A stretch of 8,397 bases of DNA, taken from positions 1-8,397 of the forward strand of contig JAKAXF010000024.1 in NCBI GenBank assembly GCA_021816645.1, given 5' to 3'. Positions 1 through 7,194 of the stretch are shown here, piece after piece. Source of the DNA: Microcaldota archaeon (lineage in GTDB: Archaea; Micrarchaeota; Micrarchaeia; Micrarchaeales; Micrarchaeaceae). Within the stretch, counting starts at the first letter, position 1; every line of letters starts with the position of its first letter. The notes beneath the pieces were generated by a model that saw nothing but the letters and a program-made list of their open reading frames with translations, did no database searches and was not told where the DNA came from. The translations under genes were made by a program, and so were the position numbers.

Positions 1-360
1 TTCATTTCGCTCCTTGCTTTTGTAGATGGAGTATACGAAATAGATTTCTCTTCCATCTACAGGTATGTAGTTGACGTGCTGGCTCATGCAGATGGCGCGA
101 CCATCGGAATAGTACAAACTGGCTCTCTAATCGAAAGAATAAACGCCCTGTCAGGGATAAACCAGAGCCTATCGCACGATCTGATTAAACTGCGCGCAGA
201 AATTTCACCATTGAGGAAGAGCGTTGCACGGTACAAAATGGTTCTCGGCGAGGTACTCGAATGGTTGCACAAGAACGGCTTTGCGGAAAACAGGGCGTTC
301 ATGGATGCCGTTGGTAACGGAATCTTACAACTGAACAATGAACTTGGGGTGCGCTGGTAA
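1..360 (+). CDS. 3' end of an unrecognised coiled-coil protein gene (truncated by window edge)
   Basis: The reading frame is open from base 1 to the TAA at 358-360, giving 119 residues, so the gene probably begins outside the window. A GTG at 76 would give a 94-residue protein, but the 25 codons before it are protein-like (FISLLAFVDGVYEIDF...) and no convincing Shine-Dalgarno sequence sits at the right distance. Residues about 43-90 of the visible part are a long charged and leucine-rich helix (LIERINAL, DLIKLRAEI, VLGEVLEWL) that could form a coiled coil. No catalytic motif or membrane segment is visible. Its stop overlaps the next start by one base (TAATG), so it belongs to the operon ending in the VirB4-like ATPase and may be a structural or adaptor part of that machine. 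The family is not recognised; the role is inferred only from context. Confidence 0.6.
   Translation, partial: FISLLAFVDGVYEIDFSSIYRYVVDVLAHADGATIGIVQTGSLIERINALSGINQSLSHDLIKLRAEISPLRKSVARYKMVLGEVLEWLHKNGFAENRAFMDAVGNGILQLNNELGVRW
21..61. repeat. 10-bp perfect inverted repeat inside the first gene
   Basis: TGTAGATGGA at 21-30 is the exact reverse complement of 52-61, with 21 bases between the arms, including the palindrome GTATAC. It lies within coding sequence. Its significance is unknown, and a repeat this size may occur by chance in a window of this length. Confidence 0.4.
346..351 (+). promoter_or_regulatory. Shine-Dalgarno site for the 248-aa membrane protein
   Basis: GGGGTG lies eight bases before the ATG at 360 and matches the archaeal anti-Shine-Dalgarno end of 16S rRNA. 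It lies inside the upstream gene, which supports the ATG at 360 as a coupled start overlapping the previous stop. Confidence 0.6.
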
Positions 361-1106
361 TGGCCGATCAACGATTGACTATGGTTGCACTCGCCATCCT
401 GCTTCTTACCGAGTCTGGAGCAATTTTCGGAGGGGCTGGCGGGCTACTCTACGGATTCGGGACGTTGCTGTACATACCGTTTGGCATCACGATACTCGTA
501 TTCTTCAGGTCGCTTTCAGAGGGATTGACTAGGCACGTCGTTCTGGAATACGATGACCAGCCTCGTGGAATCACTCACTTAACCGCAAAGCGTTTGCATG
601 ATCTGCGTGATTCTGCCAGCAATGAGCTCGACAGGCTCCTTGCGGTGAGCGGATTAGCCGTAAATGTACAAGAATTGAGGGAGGCAATCGTCAAGGAGCT
701 GGATGGAGACCCAAGCCTGGGCTTGGACGAGGAACTTTCGCGTTTGATAGAACAGCAGAATAGTGGCATGCTGGTAGACCACGGCGAAATGGTTATCTGT
801 AGCCTGAAGGATCCAAAAGGCTACATAATGAGGTACGGCTACGAAACCGCAGTAAAGGACGCGAGCGCGCTTGATATTGAAGGTCTAACAGTCCGCGCCA
901 AAAACGTTATTCTGTACTATGGAAGCTTAAGGCTCAAAAATATTTCAGAACGCGCGGTATCGAAAGCGGGTTACGAAATTTTTATTCCTAGCAGTAACTC
1001 CGCATCGAAGCTGCGCTACACCTTGACCGATTACGGCAGGAGGAGCGCGGCTGCGCTCTTTATGGTAACGAATGGAAATTTGAAGTTGATTGCATGCTCC
1101 AGGTAG
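360..1106 (+). CDS. membrane-anchored protein with possible winged-helix cytosolic part
   Basis: 248 residues. The N-terminus has two hydrophobic segments, roughly residues 8-30 and 33-50, separated by a Gly-rich turn (FGGAGG) and followed by a basic residue, so the rest is likely cytosolic. The middle (about 75-135) is charged and helical. The C-terminal third holds alternating strand-like stretches and a phrase near 219-226 (RYTLTDYG) that resembles the wing of winged-helix regulators (Y-x-L-T-x-x-G). The resemblance is by eye only and the family is not recognised. The start overlaps the upstream TAA by one base; the 3' end overlaps the next gene by 13 bases. Within a VirB4-type operon it could be an inner-membrane scaffold or a regulator, but neither is shown by the sequence. 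Arginine codons are mixed (CGC, CGT, AGG), unlike the AGG-rich lon and top6A genes. Confidence 0.8.
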   Translation: MADQRLTMVALAILLLTESGAIFGGAGGLLYGFGTLLYIPFGITILVFFRSLSEGLTRHVVLEYDDQPRGITHLTAKRLHDLRDSASNELDRLLAVSGLAVNVQELREAIVKELDGDPSLGLDEELSRLIEQQNSGMLVDHGEMVICSLKDPKGYIMRYGYETAVKDASALDIEGLTVRAKNVILYYGSLRLKNISERAVSKAGYEIFIPSSNSASKLRYTLTDYGRRSAAALFMVTNGNLKLIACSR

Positions 1107-1282
1107 TAAAGGGTGTGGCGCTCGTTGGCCTTGTTGCTAGCACGCTGATGTTCAGCGCGTGCGTCCTGAAATTAATAATTGAGGGTATGAAAAGAGAAGC
1201 AGATCGGCACGCGAGCAGCTTGAAGATGACACTCGGCGCTTCCCTGCTCCTTGCCGTATCTATATTCATGCTGGTGTCCTGA
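1094..1282 (+). CDS. 62-aa two-TM hairpin membrane protein, VirB2/CedA1-like in shape
   Basis: Small hydrophobic protein with one membrane helix at about residues 5-29 (VVKGVALVGLVASTLMFSA...), a short charged loop (KREADRH, 33-39) and a second helix at about 44-61. The charged loop is probably cytosolic, putting both ends outside. This two-helix hairpin is the topology of VirB2/TrbC pilin subunits and of the small CedA1/CedA2 partners of the crenarchaeal Ced DNA importer. No sequence-level match to those families can be claimed by eye. The start lies inside the end of the preceding gene (13-nt overlap) with no clear Shine-Dalgarno, suggesting coupled translation. The stop directly abuts the next start. 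No signal peptidase or class III pilin cleavage site is evident. Confidence 0.75.
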   Translation: MLQVVKGVALVGLVASTLMFSACVLKLIIEGMKREADRHASSLKMTLGASLLLAVSIFMLVS

Positions 1283-1558
1283 ATGTTTGATAACTTATTC
1301 GCGGCTATCGGCAAAACAAATCACTACGAAAATGCGCTCGCCGTAGTATCCGGAGCCGGAGCCTTGATATTCATTTTCTATATTGTAGGCGAAATAACAC
1401 ACGTCGGACTCGGATACGTTGTTGTGCCATACGTTGCCGCTATATCGGCCCTGGCGGTTCTCATACTCAAAAATGGCGTGGAGATGCACAGGGACGGCAG
1501 GGTACTCATGCTTGTCTCTCTCATGCTTGCGTTGTTGTCGTTCTCTCTTATAATATAG
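1283..1558 (+). CDS. 91-aa three-TM membrane protein, possible VirB3-like partner
   Basis: The ATG at 1283 immediately follows the TGA of the upstream gene, and GGTG at 1273-1276 is a well-spaced Shine-Dalgarno. The protein has a short polar N-terminus (about 17 residues), then hydrophobic helices at about 18-37, 42-63 and 73-91. A charged segment (KNGVEMHRDGR) lies between the second and third, and the protein ends within the last helix. It has no Cys pairs or catalytic motif. It lies directly before the HerA/VirB4-like ATPase, where conjugation systems usually encode VirB3/TrbD, a small membrane protein that docks VirB4. That analogy rests on position and topology only. The family is not recognised. 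Confidence 0.75.
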   Translation: MFDNLFAAIGKTNHYENALAVVSGAGALIFIFYIVGEITHVGLGYVVVPYVAAISALAVLILKNGVEMHRDGRVLMLVSLMLALLSFSLII

Positions 1559-1566
1559 GTCTTGCT

Positions 1567-3816
1567 ATGGTGTTGAAATTCTTTGAGGTTACGCGGCTGC
1601 CCGACCAGGAATTTGACAGGGAAGCGATGATGGAGCTGTTCGGGAAGAACGCTTTTATGATAGGTTACGACTTCGCGCTCAGGACCACGATCCTCGCGGT
1701 CGATGAACGTTCTGACGGCGCTGCGAGGCTTGGGCTGGTAGTCCCGGGAATGGAGCTGTCCGATGCTAAAGGCTATGGTGATAAGGTTGAACGGATACTC
1801 CTTCTCTCAGTATTCAGGGAAGCAGAGACCATGCATCCTACCACATTCAGCGACGTTTTCTCGCTGCGATTGGGAAGCGGTTTCTTGGGTTTTGTGTTCA
1901 GGCCGCTCGGCATAGATGAGATAGGGAAGAGTAAGAAGCTGGTCGAGGGATTGCTGGAGAAGAAGGTAGTGAGGGAGACGCTCTCTGTGCTCAACGGCTC
2001 TGTGATGAGCAGGATGAGCAACTCGCAGCAGCGCGACACGTTCAGCGGCTCGGAAGAGAGGATGCTGCTAGCCGAGATACTGGAATCGTTGAACCTGGCT
2101 GTGCTCAGCGGCATGCACGTATACGAGATATACGCGGTAATAATTGGACCGGAAGCGCTGGAGGAGTACACGAGGGAGAAGCTTTTCGTCATGGACAGCG
2201 TAGCACTTTCAACGAGGCTTCGCGACTGGCCATTCGAAAAGATGCCGAGGTCGTTGCCCGTTGGTATAGGGAGCGCCAAGAATTTCGTGAACTTCTACGG
2301 AGTAAGGGGCTTGTCGTATTCATTGAAGACCGCACAGGCGGAGGGCGGTGGTGCAATAAAGATAGGCACGTTCCTTGAAGATGGGGTTCATGATACGGGA
2401 GAGGAGGTACGCGTTGATCCGTCGCTCCTGAACCTCGGCTTTGTGCTCACTGGTCTTCCAGGTTCTGGCAAGACTATGGAGGCGATGAGTGTTATAGATT
2501 CCGTGCTGTCTGAGAAGAAGGGGACGAGAGTGGTAGTGCTCGCACCGACCGATGAATGGGACGGCTTTGCGTTGGATCATGGGATGCATCTCGTAAAGAT
2601 CTACCAGGACGGGGTCCCGATCAACTTCTTCAGGTGCGCAGAAGGCGTCGATGCATCAGTGTTCTACGAGGATCTCGCGATGCTCATATCCTCTTCTTCT
2701 GACGCAGGCCCGTACAGGAACCCGATGGAGAAGTGCCTGCTGAACGCCTTCAAGAACGTCTACCATGGAGACGAACGCGAACCCGATCCCGTCCTCGTTT
2801 ACAAAGAGATAGAGGAAGCGGTAATAAGGCTGCACGCTAAGAGAACGAACGTTGGCGTGAAGTACACGAAGCACGGGGAGAATATAAGGTCTGCCCTGGA
2901 GAACCTCAGGAGCATAATAAGGAGGCCTGAATATTCGTCGCGGAAGGGGATAAGGATTGAGGACGTTGCGGAAAGTGGCGTGGTGTTCAACATATCTGGA
3001 GTAAGCAACAAGATAAAACCGAGCATATACGCCCTACTGCTCAATCAGGCTTACACGCTTGCAAACGCTTACGATACGAACGGCGATGACGACCTCAGGC
3101 TTCTAGTTTGCCTCGAGGAGTCTCAGACGATACTGGGGCAGAGGGGAAGCGCTGCCGTGGAAGACCTGACATACAGGATACAGGATTTCAGGAAAAAGGG
3201 CGTGGGGCTCGTACTGCTGACCCACAACGCTGATGACATAGATGACAGGATAAGGAGGCTGTGCCAGCTCAAGCTCTACCTCAAGCAGTCTCCGGACGCA
3301 GCCGACGCGGCCGCAGGGGACCTGATGTTCACTTACGCGGACAATGAAACTGTGGCCAGGAAGCTTAAGCACCTTGACTCCAGGACCGGCGCGTTCGGAT
3401 ACCTGGTAAAGAAAGGAAGAGAGAAGGTGGCGTGCGACAGCGTATTCCTGCGAACCGCAGATTACGGCCCGCATCCCGAAATGAAATATGATGCAGAGGA
3501 CACGCCCCTTACTGAAGAGTATATGAAAATAAATAGCATTGAACGCCCTGCTTTAATAGACGCAAAGCTGCGTATAGAGATCCGGGCAGAGCCCGATAGC
3601 AGGGAGATGAAGCTGAAGGGACTTTCGATTGGCATCTACTACCTGTTGGAACCTGTAGTGCGATTTGATGTAGCGTCGTTACACGGCGGAGTTGCTGCCG
3701 CAAGGCTTGTGAATAGTAGAGTTTATGATGCATGTCTTGAGAATGCGAGCGGCAGGATCCTAAGTTCTTCGAGCTTCACTGCGAGCGGAAACACGAAAAT
3801 AAAATTCATTCTGTAA
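1567..3816 (+). CDS. HerA/VirB4-superfamily ATPase, probable DNA-transfer or secretion motor
   Basis: 749 residues. The N-terminal 290 residues are a mixed alpha/beta domain in the place of the VirB4 N-terminal domain. The ATPase core follows: Walker A GLPGSGKT at 296-303 (Lys302), Walker B LLVCLEE at 512-518 ending in the acidic pair Glu517-Glu518 (EE, as often in HerA proteins), a likely arginine finger at Arg542 (DFRKKGVG), and LLTHN at 550-554 in place of the usual TQ sensor. Between Walker A and B lies a helical insertion (about 345-470), typical of VirB4/HerA rather than FtsK. The last 110 residues are beta-rich and could be an added Ig/transthyretin-like sandwich. The likely role is a hexameric motor at the cytoplasmic membrane. 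It sits 8 nt after two small membrane-protein genes, with AGGT at 1557-1560 as Shine-Dalgarno. Family assignment is strong; the substrate (DNA or protein) is inferred. Confidence 0.88.
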   Translation: MVLKFFEVTRLPDQEFDREAMMELFGKNAFMIGYDFALRTTILAVDERSDGAARLGLVVPGMELSDAKGYGDKVERILLLSVFREAETMHPTTFSDVFSLRLGSGFLGFVFRPLGIDEIGKSKKLVEGLLEKKVVRETLSVLNGSVMSRMSNSQQRDTFSGSEERMLLAEILESLNLAVLSGMHVYEIYAVIIGPEALEEYTREKLFVMDSVALSTRLRDWPFEKMPRSLPVGIGSAKNFVNFYGVRGLSYSLKTAQAEGGGAIKIGTFLEDGVHDTGEEVRVDPSLLNLGFVLTGLPGSGKTMEAMSVIDSVLSEKKGTRVVVLAPTDEWDGFALDHGMHLVKIYQDGVPINFFRCAEGVDASVFYEDLAMLISSSSDAGPYRNPMEKCLLNAFKNVYHGDEREPDPVLVYKEIEEAVIRLHAKRTNVGVKYTKHGENIRSALENLRSIIRRPEYSSRKGIRIEDVAESGVVFNISGVSNKIKPSIYALLLNQAYTLANAYDTNGDDDLRLLVCLEESQTILGQRGSAAVEDLTYRIQDFRKKGVGLVLLTHNADDIDDRIRRLCQLKLYLKQSPDAADAAAGDLMFTYADNETVARKLKHLDSRTGAFGYLVKKGREKVACDSVFLRTADYGPHPEMKYDAEDTPLTEEYMKINSIERPALIDAKLRIEIRAEPDSREMKLKGLSIGIYYLLEPVVRFDVASLHGGVAAARLVNSRVYDACLENASGRILSSSSFTASGNTKIKFIL

Positions 3817-4053: not shown

Positions 4054-4097
4054 TTATTCGTACCTAAATTACGTGTAAATATTGTTCAGGTAACGTG

Positions 4098-6020
4098 ATG
4101 ATGAAGTTCAAGACAACCGCTGATATAAAGGTCTCCGACAAGCTCATAGACCAGGTAATCGGCCAGCAGAGCGCGGTCGAGATAATAAAGAAGGCAGCGA
4201 AACAGAGGAGGAACGTGCTCCTTATCGGAGAGCCTGGAACAGGCAAGACTATGCTGGCGCAGGCTATGGCAGAGCTTCTGCCGAATACAGACCTCGAGGA
4301 CGTACTGGCTTACAAGAACGTGAACGATGAGAACACTCCTATCATCAAAACCGTTAAGACGTATCCTGACGGGATAGACAAGGCGCCGAACGGCGACGGA
4401 CAGGGCAGGATAATACTGCAGAAGGAGAGGATGAAGAACAGGATGACGCTATCCAAGGGTAGCTCGATAGTGTCACCGATAGTGATGGTGCTGGTTATAC
4501 TGCTGTTCGGGCTTTCGCTGAGCGGCCTGATAAAGGGATATGAGATAATCGTGCTTGCGGCTCTGATCCTTGGTATATTCATATTCGGCGCTATGGCGGT
4601 TTTCATGAGCGGGCTCACGCGCAGGGTTGGTATTCCGGGAATGACTGATATAAACGAACCGAAGCTTATAGTAGACAACACTGGCCTGATTCACGCTCCG
4701 TTCGTAGACGCGACGGGAAACAAGGCCGGTGCCCTTTTTGGTGACGTAAGGCACGATCCGCTTCAGTCTGGTGGGCTCGGAACTCCCGCACACCTCAGGG
4801 TAGAAAGCGGTGCCATACAGAAAGCAAACAAGGGTGTGCTTTACATAGACGAAGTTTCAAGCCTGGATCCTCGTTCGCAGCAAGAGCTTCTTACCGCGAT
4901 GCAGGAAAAGAAGTACGCAATAACAGGGCAGAGCGAGATGAGCTCTGGAGCTCTGGTAAAAACCGAGCCAGCCCCCTGCGACTTCCTTTTGGTAGCGGCG
5001 GGAAACCTGCAGGACATGCAGCACATGCACCCAGCGCTCAGGTCTAGAATAAGGGGATACGGATACGAGGTATATATGGAGTCTTCGATAGCAGATACCG
5101 AAAAGAACCGTGAGGAGATAATAAGGTTCATAGCGCAGGAGGTAAAGAAGGACGGCAGGATACCGCACTTCGACGTGGGGGCCGCGAACATGATAATAGA
5201 GGAGGCGAAGAGAAGGTCTGGCAGGAAGAACAGGCTGACTATGATTCTGAGGGACCTTGGCGGCCTAGTAAGGGCGGCAGGAGATATAGCGATAGAGAGA
5301 AAGAAGGACGTCGTTACAAAGGATGAGGTCTTTGGCGCACTGAACCTTGCCAGGCCTATAGAATCACAGATCGTTACGCAGGAACTTGACTACAGGAAGG
5401 ACTACCAGGTTTTCACCACGCGCGGTTACAAGATAGGCAAGGTCAACGGGCTTGCTGTGCTTGGATCGTCTCCAACGCTCTCATCAGGGATAGTCATGCC
5501 GATAGTCGCCGAGGTAACCCCGGCGAGCTCGAGGGCGGAGGGCAAGTTTATACCTACGGGCAAGCTCGGCAAGATAGCCAGCGAGGCCGTGAAGAACGTA
5601 AGCGCCGTGATAAAGAAGCACATGGAGAAGGACGTTGCAAACTACGACATTCACGTGCAGTTCCTACAGACCTACGAAGGAGTAGAGGGGGACAGCGCGA
5701 GCGTGAGCGTTGCAGTAAGCGTCATATCCGCCATGGAGGGCGTGCCCGTGGATCAGTCCGTAGCCATGACAGGATCCATGTCGGTAAGAGGTGAGGTGCT
5801 GCCCGTAGGAGGCATAACGCAGAAAGTAGAGGCGGCGATAGAAGCGGGGGTCAAAACCGTCATGATACCGAAGAGCAACGAGCACGACGTCATAATAGAC
5901 AAGGCGAGGCTGAAGAAGGTAAAGGTGATACCCGTGAGGAGCCTGGCAGAAGTGATAAGGTATGCCCTGCGACCGGGGGCCAAGAGGGACGGGATCGTAA
6001 GGAAACTCAGAAGGGTATAA
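4098..6020 (+). CDS. lonB: archaeal membrane-anchored ATP-dependent protease LonB
   Basis: A 640-residue LonB, the usual length for the archaeal family. From the ATG at 4098 it has Walker A GEPGTGKT at 44-51 (Lys50), two adjacent transmembrane helices at about 124-145 and 149-170 inserted in the AAA+ module between Walker A and B, and Walker B VLYIDE with Asp251-Glu252. A C-terminal protease domain carries catalytic Ser533 in EGDSAS and Lys576 in [10 protein letters not shown]. The 43-residue spacing of this Ser-Lys dyad is what archaeal Lon shows. The enzyme unfolds and degrades damaged or regulatory proteins at the cytoplasmic face of the membrane. GTG at 4095 and ATG at 4101 are alternative starts; 4098 has the best spacing (6 nt) from AGGT at 4088-4091. 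No intein or frameshift is visible. Arg is almost always AGG and Ile mostly ATA, consistent with a well-expressed resident gene. Confidence 0.96.
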
Positions 6021-6036
6021 GTCCGAGCGGCCGGAC
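6021..6036 (+). terminator. possible hairpin after lonB
   Basis: GTCCG and CGGAC form a perfect 5-bp stem around a 6-nt loop directly after the lonB stop, followed ten bases later by a short T run (6043-6046). Archaeal termination depends mainly on T tracts, so this is a weak candidate. Confidence 0.25.
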
Positions 6037-6047
6037 CAAAGCTTTTG

Positions 6048-6055
6048 TATTTATA
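6048..6055 (+). promoter_or_regulatory. TATA box of top6A
   Basis: TATTTATA lies in a G+C-richer intergenic stretch about 40 nt upstream of the ATG at 6091. It predicts a transcription start near 6076-6080 and a short leader of about 10-15 nt, so top6A appears to be transcribed separately from lonB. Confidence 0.5.
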
Positions 6056-6090
6056 CTACGCAATCGTTATGCTAAACGCGGGTGTCGCTT

Positions 6091-7194
6091 ATGAAGAAGG
6101 AGAACGTTGACGTCGGTGCAATGCTTGAGGATTTTGGCAAGGATATAGTCGCGCAGGTTGAGAAGGGCAAGAACCCGTCATTCAACACAACTTCGCGCAC
6201 AAGGTCGAACGTGCACTATGATGAGAAGGGAGGGTTTTTGAAGTTGGGAAACGCGAAGGAGGAGCGCAGCTTCATAAACGTGGCGCAGACCAAGAGGTTC
6301 ATGCAGACCATGGCGGTTGCGGGGAAGTGCCACAAATTCGTGAAGGAGAACCTGCACACTACAATCAGGGGCCTTTTTTACCAGCTCAAATACTCGCTTG
6401 GAGAGGACGTTGACGAGAATATATTCAACGAGCAGAGCGAATCCAATCCGCTGATAGAGGACCTCGAGGTGGCGCTGGGAATCAGGAGGGAAGAACTGCA
6501 CCTCAACGCCAACAGGAAGGGCGTGCTGATAGGAAACATGAAGGTGAGGGACTACTTCGGAAAGGAGGAGCAGGAGATAGACGTAAGCAAGCTGGGAAGG
6601 AGCGGCTGGGGCATACCGAGCGATGTTGACAACGACATAGAATTCGTCGACGTGAAGGCGAAGTACGCGCTCGTAGTAGAAAAGGACGCACTCTGGCAGA
6701 GGCTGAACGAAGACGGATTCTGGAAGAAGGAGAACGCGATACTTATAAGCCCGCAGGGTCAGGCCGCCAGGGGAACGAGGCGCATAATAAGAAAGCTGGC
6801 AGACACGGGAATGCCCATCTACGTATTCAACGACTGCGACGCGTGGGGATGGTACATCTACTGGACGATAAAGACAGGGAGCATAAACCTTGCGTACATA
6901 GGCGGGGACATAGCCACGCCGGAGGCCAGATTCATAGGGGTGACGATGTCTGACCTGGACAGGTACGACTTCCTGAACAACATGACTATGAAGACCAACG
7001 AAGTAGACATAAAAAGAGCGCAGGAGATGCTCGAGTATCCCTGGATCAACCGACACGAGGAGTGGGTGTCAGAGCTTAAGAGGGTCATAAAAACGAAGAA
7101 GAAGCTGGAGCAGGACACGCTTGAGGGGCCCAGGCTGACTTTCGTGGACGATTATGTTAGGGAGAAGATAAAGAACAAGGAATTTCTTCCGTAG
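6091..7194 (+). CDS. top6A: DNA topoisomerase VI subunit A (Spo11 family)
   Basis: A 367-residue type IIB topoisomerase catalytic subunit, which cuts both DNA strands and relaxes supercoils together with the ATPase subunit B. The 5Y-CAP domain carries the nucleophile Tyr97 in TIRGLFY. The Toprim domain carries the metal ligands Glu197 in VVEKDA and Asp248/Asp250 in NDCDAWG, followed by the family phrase YIYWTIKTGS. Length is typical of the archaeal subunit and nothing is truncated. GTG at 6082 could add three residues, but GGGTG at 6079-6083 is a good Shine-Dalgarno for the ATG at 6091 and overlaps that GTG, so the ATG is preferred. The usual neighbour top6B is absent: upstream is lonB and downstream is a convergent gene two bases away. 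Codon use is strongly AGG/ATA, like lonB. Confidence 0.95.
   Translation: MKKENVDVGAMLEDFGKDIVAQVEKGKNPSFNTTSRTRSNVHYDEKGGFLKLGNAKEERSFINVAQTKRFMQTMAVAGKCHKFVKENLHTTIRGLFYQLKYSLGEDVDENIFNEQSESNPLIEDLEVALGIRREELHLNANRKGVLIGNMKVRDYFGKEEQEIDVSKLGRSGWGIPSDVDNDIEFVDVKAKYALVVEKDALWQRLNEDGFWKKENAILISPQGQAARGTRRIIRKLADTGMPIYVFNDCDAWGWYIYWTIKTGSINLAYIGGDIATPEARFIGVTMSDLDRYDFLNNMTMKTNEVDIKRAQEMLEYPWINRHEEWVSELKRVIKTKKKLEQDTLEGPRLTFVDDYVREKIKNKEFLP

Follow-up and report, generated by a model that had tools for sequence, protein, structure and literature searches.

The window analyzed here is the whole stretch of 8,397 nucleotides (nt) from contig JAKAXF010000024.1 of a Microcaldota archaeon (GCA_021816645.1), and its first part carries five plus-strand genes that end with a gene encoding an ATPase of VirB4 type. 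We labeled nine gene families F1-F9 in operon order, and the window contains F5-F9. We consider it reasonably probable that these five genes are the second half of a chromosomal nine-gene apparatus of Micrarchaeota, which derives from type IV secretion or conjugation machinery and was probably domesticated; type IV secretion ancestry itself is very likely. The open reading frames (ORFs) and features, with lengths in amino acids (aa), are as follows.

1..360, + strand: F5 (ORF1), 3' part of a 217-aa protein, C-terminal half coiled-coil-like, 5' end outside the window
360..1106, + strand: F6 (ORF2), 248 aa, two membrane segments at the N-terminus and a further domain, very divergent family
1094..1282, + strand: F7 (ORF3), 62-aa two-helix membrane protein
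1283..1558, + strand: F8 (ORF4), 91-aa three-helix membrane protein, VirB3-like by place only
1567..3816, + strand: F9, 749-aa VirB4-type ATPase according to its AlphaFold model and fold match
1567..2316, + strand: F9 N-terminal domain, about residues 1-250, aligning with the VirB4 N-terminal region
2452..2475, + strand: F9 Walker A, GLPGSGKT, residues 296-303, conserved in 101 sequences
3094..3126, + strand: F9 Walker B region, residues 510-520, with E517 nearly invariant and E518 invariant
3547..3813, + strand: F9 C-terminal beta-rich domain, about residues 661-749, from model secondary structure, past the VirB4-like part

The genes are tightly packed: ORF1 and ORF2 overlap by 1 nt at position 360, ORF2 (ending at 1106) and ORF3 (starting at 1094) overlap by 13 nt, ORF3 and ORF4 abut at 1282/1283, and a gap of 8 nt separates the end of ORF4 (1558) from the start of the ATPase gene (1567). 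The five plus-strand ORFs, the lengths of 248, 62, 91, and 749 aa, and all junctions were exactly as given in a first-pass annotation made from the DNA alone. ORF1 is truncated by the window edge, which leaves 119 aa visible; the full 217-aa protein is encoded in L001 (Candidatus Micrarchaeota archaeon isolate YF1.bin22), a near-identical locus. L001 matches the window at 99.43% over 8393 bases, with 48 mismatches and no gaps, and this nearest contig agrees with the archaeal origin that had been proposed. The predicted membrane segments were also recovered, as the L001 copies of ORF2, ORF3, and ORF4 have two, two, and three segments, respectively, in Kyte-Doolittle hydropathy windows. Direct family searches with ORF1-4 of the window gave no convincing match in Pfam or NCBIfam.

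The AlphaFold model of F9 (predicted local distance difference test, pLDDT, 91.0; predicted template modeling score, pTM, 0.86) shows a VirB4-type architecture, as the first-pass annotation had suggested. Its best fold match in the PDB was the full-length VirB4/TrwK of plasmid R388 (7.1e-15), and residues 1..648 of the model were compared with TrwK over 540 aligned residues, but with a root-mean-square deviation of 14.2 for the full-length model. The conserved motifs and the fold identify a P-loop ATPase domain of the FtsK-HerA type with Walker A and B. Among the 101 sequences, L297, S300, and T303 of Walker A were nearly invariant and its other positions were invariant. The C-terminal beta-rich domain was barely covered by the fold matches. 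At the level of profiles, F9 stayed below every cut-off of the Pfam and NCBIfam models. CagE_TrbE_VirB, the Pfam model for the N-terminal domain of VirB4, did not appear in the listed matches of the window ATPase or of the 29 A1 members, and remote relatives can escape such a profile search.

The genes preceding the ATPase recur with it in other genomes. Of 80 loci, 48 have a member of the F5 family 5' of the ATPase; this sample comprises the best 80 of 102 found and includes at least two loci from one metagenome-assembled genome (L064 and L079). The coiled coil assigned to ORF1 was read from a homolog whose score of 31.1 bits with the ZapB coiled-coil model is just below the cut-off of 31.5 bits. 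The F6 copy in L001 matched the family profile at 2.1e-28, and the F6 alignment (A9) is divergent, with a mean column identity of 23%. With size and distance limits that were chosen after viewing the loci, an ORF4-type small membrane ORF lay immediately 5' of the ATPase in 49 of 76 eligible loci and of 6 among 486 control genes in those loci, and the pair of ORF3 and ORF4 occurred in 37 of the 76 loci and at none of the 486 control genes. Leave-one-out profiles at an expectation value (E) <0.01 recovered 32 of 47 candidate members of the ORF3 family and 35 of 48 of the ORF4 family, and the left-out member ranked among the top five in 36 of 47 and only 16 of 48 cases, respectively. The L001 copies ranked first (ORF3/F7, 1.4e-6; ORF4/F8, 1.9e-7). 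Both place and profile show that F7 and F8 are real families, F8 being the weaker of the two by rank.

In relatives, F5-F9 are often preceded by F1 (about 130 aa), F2 (about 340 aa), F3 (about 250 aa), and F4, an ATPase of 370-460 aa. In 38 of the 80 loci, all four genes precede F5-F9 on the strand of the ATPase gene; of the 61 loci that extend 5.3 kb or more upstream, 37 have them. The order F1-F2-F3-F4-F5 was kept in 38 of 38 loci. The conservation of gene order in relatives that the first-pass annotation had proposed to check was therefore found, and the pilin-like F1 and the polytopic F2 belong to the system. F2 was absent upstream in the other 24 of the 61 loci, including L001.

F1 resembles the VirB2/TrbC pilins: at E up to 1, two Pfam pilin models were matched by 15 and 14 of 19 members (best values 4.1e-7 and 4.1e-5, respectively), and the copy of the window lineage fell just below both Pfam cut-offs. 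The 62-aa F7 had been put forward as a VirB2 pilin; this assignment was rejected, as the pilin-like gene is F1, with 131 aa, on another contig of the lineage genome. Thus, from the proposed VirB2-VirB3-VirB4 labels, VirB4 stands, VirB2 for the 62-aa protein does not, and VirB3 for the 91-aa protein is based on position only. F2 shows six to eight hydropathy segments in the relatives' copies examined and sits between the pilin and the ATPase, with no family match. PDB profile searches with F1, F2, and F3 gave no convincing match, and Pfam searches on F3 gave nothing recurrent. Hydropathy gives F3 one or two membrane segments at its N-terminus, its model has two membrane helices, and one of its domains resembles residues 221..376 of VirB4/TrwK in a moderate fold match. 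F4 is an ATPase domain of VirB4/HerA type. Because F3 combines membrane helices with a domain like VirB4 221-376 and F4 provides the ATPase domain, F3 and F4 look like one VirB4 cut in two; F9 is a second VirB4. An hhalign comparison of F3 with F9 detected no similarity.

The system is widespread within its lineage. A protein search with F9 returned 240 homologs, and among the 120 listed, the named organisms were of Micrarchaeota type or Marsarchaeota, together with one Acidoferrales bacterium. A scan of species genomes yielded 102 F9 relatives, and all kept loci were Micrarchaeota, Micrarchaeaceae, or Marsarchaeota records. At E<=1e-20, 56 of the 146 phylum genomes contained F9, each of them once; in the order, 84 of 118 genomes contained it, and two of these had two hits. 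Five contigs labeled Candidatus Marsarchaeota (L022, L025, L038, L041, and L077) carry the gene set, and these labels may be wrong or the bins mixed.

In the L001 genome, F2 (7.3e-126) and F4 (2.2e-108) were found on contig C11, apart from F5-F9. On one strand of C11 lie F1 (131 aa), F2 (343 aa), F3 (250 aa), and then F4 (383 aa), and the next gene is on the opposite strand. In the window lineage, the operon is split in two, not lost. The split is not an assembly break, because other genes precede F5 and an opposite-strand gene follows F4. Among the 146 phylum genomes, 53 had F9 and a strong F2, 3 had F9 only, 4 had F2 only, and 86 had neither (Fisher 4e-31, uncorrected for ancestry), where a strong F2 means E<=1e-70, a threshold set after viewing the list, and 42 further genomes with a weaker F2 were counted as absent. 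Two of the three genomes with F9 only (G039 and G054) have a weaker F2 match. In the 53 genomes with both, F9 and F2 were less than 10 kb apart in 28, 69-311 kb apart on one contig in 3, and on different contigs in 22; these genomes are drafts, so that absences are uncertain and some of the different contigs may reflect assembly breaks. Since F9 and F2 were both retained though unlinked in 25 of the 53 genomes, we argue that they share a function.

Further T4SS-like genes (T4SS, type IV secretion system) were observed on two contigs of the L001 genome, L092 (G001:C25:10000-25137) at 2979-15137 and L093 (G001:C50) at 1-3451. They encode polytopic proteins resembling F2 (five below 1e-4 and one more at 0.006), two proteins resembling F3, an F4-like ATPase of 516 aa, a protein resembling F5 (E 1.9e-21), and a TrbC-like frame under the cut-off. 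The F6 profile had no match in this second locus, and the F9 profile matched only the shared P-loop. A 793-aa protein beside the F5-like gene had no Pfam match and looks largely extracellular. A gene resembling topoisomerase VI subunit B, as judged from its sequence, lies near this locus (L092 1290-2954). In the window, the system is followed on its 3' side by genes for a protease that has a Lon_C domain and a LonB lid domain and for topoisomerase VI subunit A. Neither belongs to the system, and the subunit A gene lies beside the F5-F9 half (window 4095-7194).

The separation of the halves in those 25 genomes, as well as the second locus with its F1- to F5-type genes, would fit two independent complexes, F1-F4 and F5-F9, that share an operon in some lineages. 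However, 53 of the 60 genomes that have either half have both, and we regard this explanation as improbable.

F9 might also be a HerA-type repair helicase whose neighboring membrane genes are incidental. The closest PDB entry to F9 by sequence was HerA 8wiv (5.3e-7), and HerA folds ranked next after VirB4 in the fold list. In addition, an archaeal Nre repair gene lies convergently beside the ATPase in 16 of the 80 loci (L003, L005, L006, L007, L025, L038, L044, L053, L057, L059, L065, L069, L070, L071, L079, and L080); among the 73 loci that extend 1.5 kb or more downstream, 13 show it. The L070 copy matched Pfam Nre_N at 4e-77, and this order was possibly just inherited. However, full-length VirB4 stood above HerA as the top fold, a search of the window lineage's 700-kb draft for NurA (PF09376) at E<=1 found nothing (7 of 14 controls were positive), F9 strongly co-occurs with F2 even when unlinked, and the small membrane genes are conserved beside the ATPase. 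A firm grouping with HerA-NurA and a lack of conserved small membrane genes were what the first-pass annotation had named as evidence against itself, and neither was seen. We therefore rejected F9 as the HerA of a HerA-NurA pair, which is a most improbable reading. Another HerA-like ATPase (583 aa, extended at the C-terminus) was noted in this draft genome (L088 829-2580, G001:C1), where NurA had no match.

Similarly, the genes might be remnants or part of an integrated conjugative element, as their components are of T4SS type and the two ATPases of the archaeal conjugative plasmid pNOB8 match the F4 profile (2.3e-16 and 1.1e-12). Profiles of F1, F2, F3, F5, F6, and F9 gave nothing below E 0.03 on pNOB8. 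Against this explanation, F9 occurs in 84 of the 118 genomes of the order and has no relative in the viral collection IMG/VR, F2 had no match in plasmids by tblastn, and PF03432, the only relaxase family searched, was found in none of 10 draft genomes. Moreover, the ATPase differs between the window and L001 strains by 11 synonymous changes and 1 nonsynonymous change. On these grounds, the mobile-element explanation was rejected as highly unlikely. The system is lineage-wide, nearly always single-copy, and without a PF03432 relaxase found, and we therefore consider it probably a domesticated machine and not that of a mobile element.

Several results weigh against a nine-gene domesticated apparatus. 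F9 scored 10.6 bits against the CedB equivalog NF041017, whose cut-off is 700, and nothing in the genome of the window lineage exceeded this cut-off. The matches of the pilin F1 and of F3 are modest, and F2, a putative VirB6, is VirB6/CedA-like by topology and place only. The published similarity of CedA1-CedA type was not found between F1 and F2 by hhalign; the F2 profile reached 0.0011 with the F1 of L091 in hmmsearch, which was not counted as a match. The coupling protein VirD4/TraG (PF02534) was weakly matched in 3 of the 10 genomes, once over the cut-off, and the other two matches, judged by location, fall at the site behind F2 that F4 occupies in the genomes concerned. In addition, the absences of NurA and the relaxase come from draft genomes.

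For a domesticated nine-gene apparatus, we propose the following arrangement. F2 would be the membrane channel, in the role of VirB6 or CedA, and F1 subunits would assemble into a pilus or conduit on top of the channel. Beneath the channel would lie the F3-F4 motor, and F9 would act as a second motor, held at the membrane by F6-F8 and the coiled-coil F5. F9 might then pass the substrate to or from the first motor, as in Ced with its two VirB4-like ATPases, CedB and CedD. DNA import is our first guess for its use, because of the Ced and Ted precedent, the lack of a PF03432 relaxase in the 10 genomes, and the lineage-wide distribution; we put it at somewhat less than an even chance.

The main alternative is a contact-dependent machine by which an epibiotic archaeon delivers proteins to a host or draws material from it. 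Nanohaloarchaeal giant proteins bearing VirB4/TraG have been proposed to act on hosts (PMC10266531), and virB6 and PrgI were reported essential for the growth of a saccharibacterial epibiont (PMC12102498). For ARMAN Micrarchaeota, a possible interaction with cells of Thermoplasmatales through pili-like structures is tabulated in PMC7308576. Additionally, seven F6 relatives (L003, L004, L010, L026, L028, L038, and L040) have an extra N-terminal stretch that looks extracellular by eye. However, the window F6 does not have this stretch, and no effector or adhesin was identified in or beside the window, where no systematic search was made. We find host traffic a rather doubtful explanation, and no result here decides between it and DNA import. 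A bolder proposal is an apparatus specific to Micrarchaeota, in which a VirB4 split into F3 (membrane-anchored) and F4 (ATPase) and a complete F9 with F6-F8 would work as a two-motor relay, with a second, differently composed apparatus in the same 0.7-Mb genome. This pair might form a cell-to-cell conduit, perhaps the pili-like links between ARMAN and Thermoplasmatales, through which epibionts would draw DNA or other material from their hosts. We offer this as speculation and think it unlikely.

For the question of how DPANN archaea exchange material with hosts and kin, the system offers a lineage-wide set of genes, with a predicted pilin, channel, and two motors, that is amenable to tagging, imaging, and removal in micrarchaeal co-cultures. 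The nine-gene apparatus would also extend domesticated T4SS machines beyond Thermoproteota and suggests that a VirB4 was cut at the boundary of its N-terminal and ATPase parts. The portions of the literature found on type IV secretion, VirB4, and conjugative pilins in Micrarchaeota or DPANN contain no description of this system.

Among the known systems, R388 VirB4/TrwK shares with F9 an N-terminal region joined to an ATPase and differs from it in sequence (about 10-12% identity), in domain placement, and in the extra C-terminal beta domain of F9. HerA helicases (4d2i and 9x1l) have a related ATPase domain, whereas full-length VirB4 fits F9 better and the lineage draft had no NurA match. The T4SS of Patescibacteria, likened here by its description in PMC12102498, is also a T4SS-type machine of ultrasmall epibiotic cells but is of the bacterial MPF-FATA type. 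The Nanohaloarchaeota, which are likewise DPANN, have two adjacent VirB4-family ATPases; according to PMC10266531, one ATPase domain lies inside a giant extracellular protein, unlike in the micrarchaeal system.

Ced and Ted are described as domesticated T4SS (PMC9905601, in part), and the kinship with such systems that had been suggested for the window fits our results. Ced of Sulfolobales (CedA, CedA1, CedA2, CedB, CedD, and CedE) resembles the micrarchaeal system in being chromosomal and in having a pilin and a polytopic channel, for which F2 is the micrarchaeal candidate. It likewise has a pair of VirB4-like ATPases, CedB and CedD, and the N-terminal domain of each corresponds to a different portion of the VirB4 N-terminus (PMC11868833; PMC9905601, both in part). 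By contrast, one micrarchaeal VirB4 is seemingly split into F3 and F4, F9 is complete and is missed by the CedB model, and no counterpart of F5-F8 is named for Ced in the parts consulted of these papers. Ted of Thermoproteales (TedA, TedB, and TedC) has, like the micrarchaeal system with F2 as its putative VirB6, chromosomal parts of VirB6, VirB4, and VirB2 type but possesses one VirB4 (TedB), often with genes for a HerA-like helicase and a ParA-like protein in the locus, in place of a split and a complete motor and F5-F8 (PMC9905601, in part). The label of a minimal machine did not hold, as nine genes and two VirB4-type motors exceed the parts given for Ced or Ted in those excerpts. Taken together, the kind of system was already established by Ced and Ted, and what is new here is its composition (an apparently split VirB4, a second complete VirB4, and F5-F8), the group of organisms that carries it, and an operon that is often divided while both of its halves are retained.

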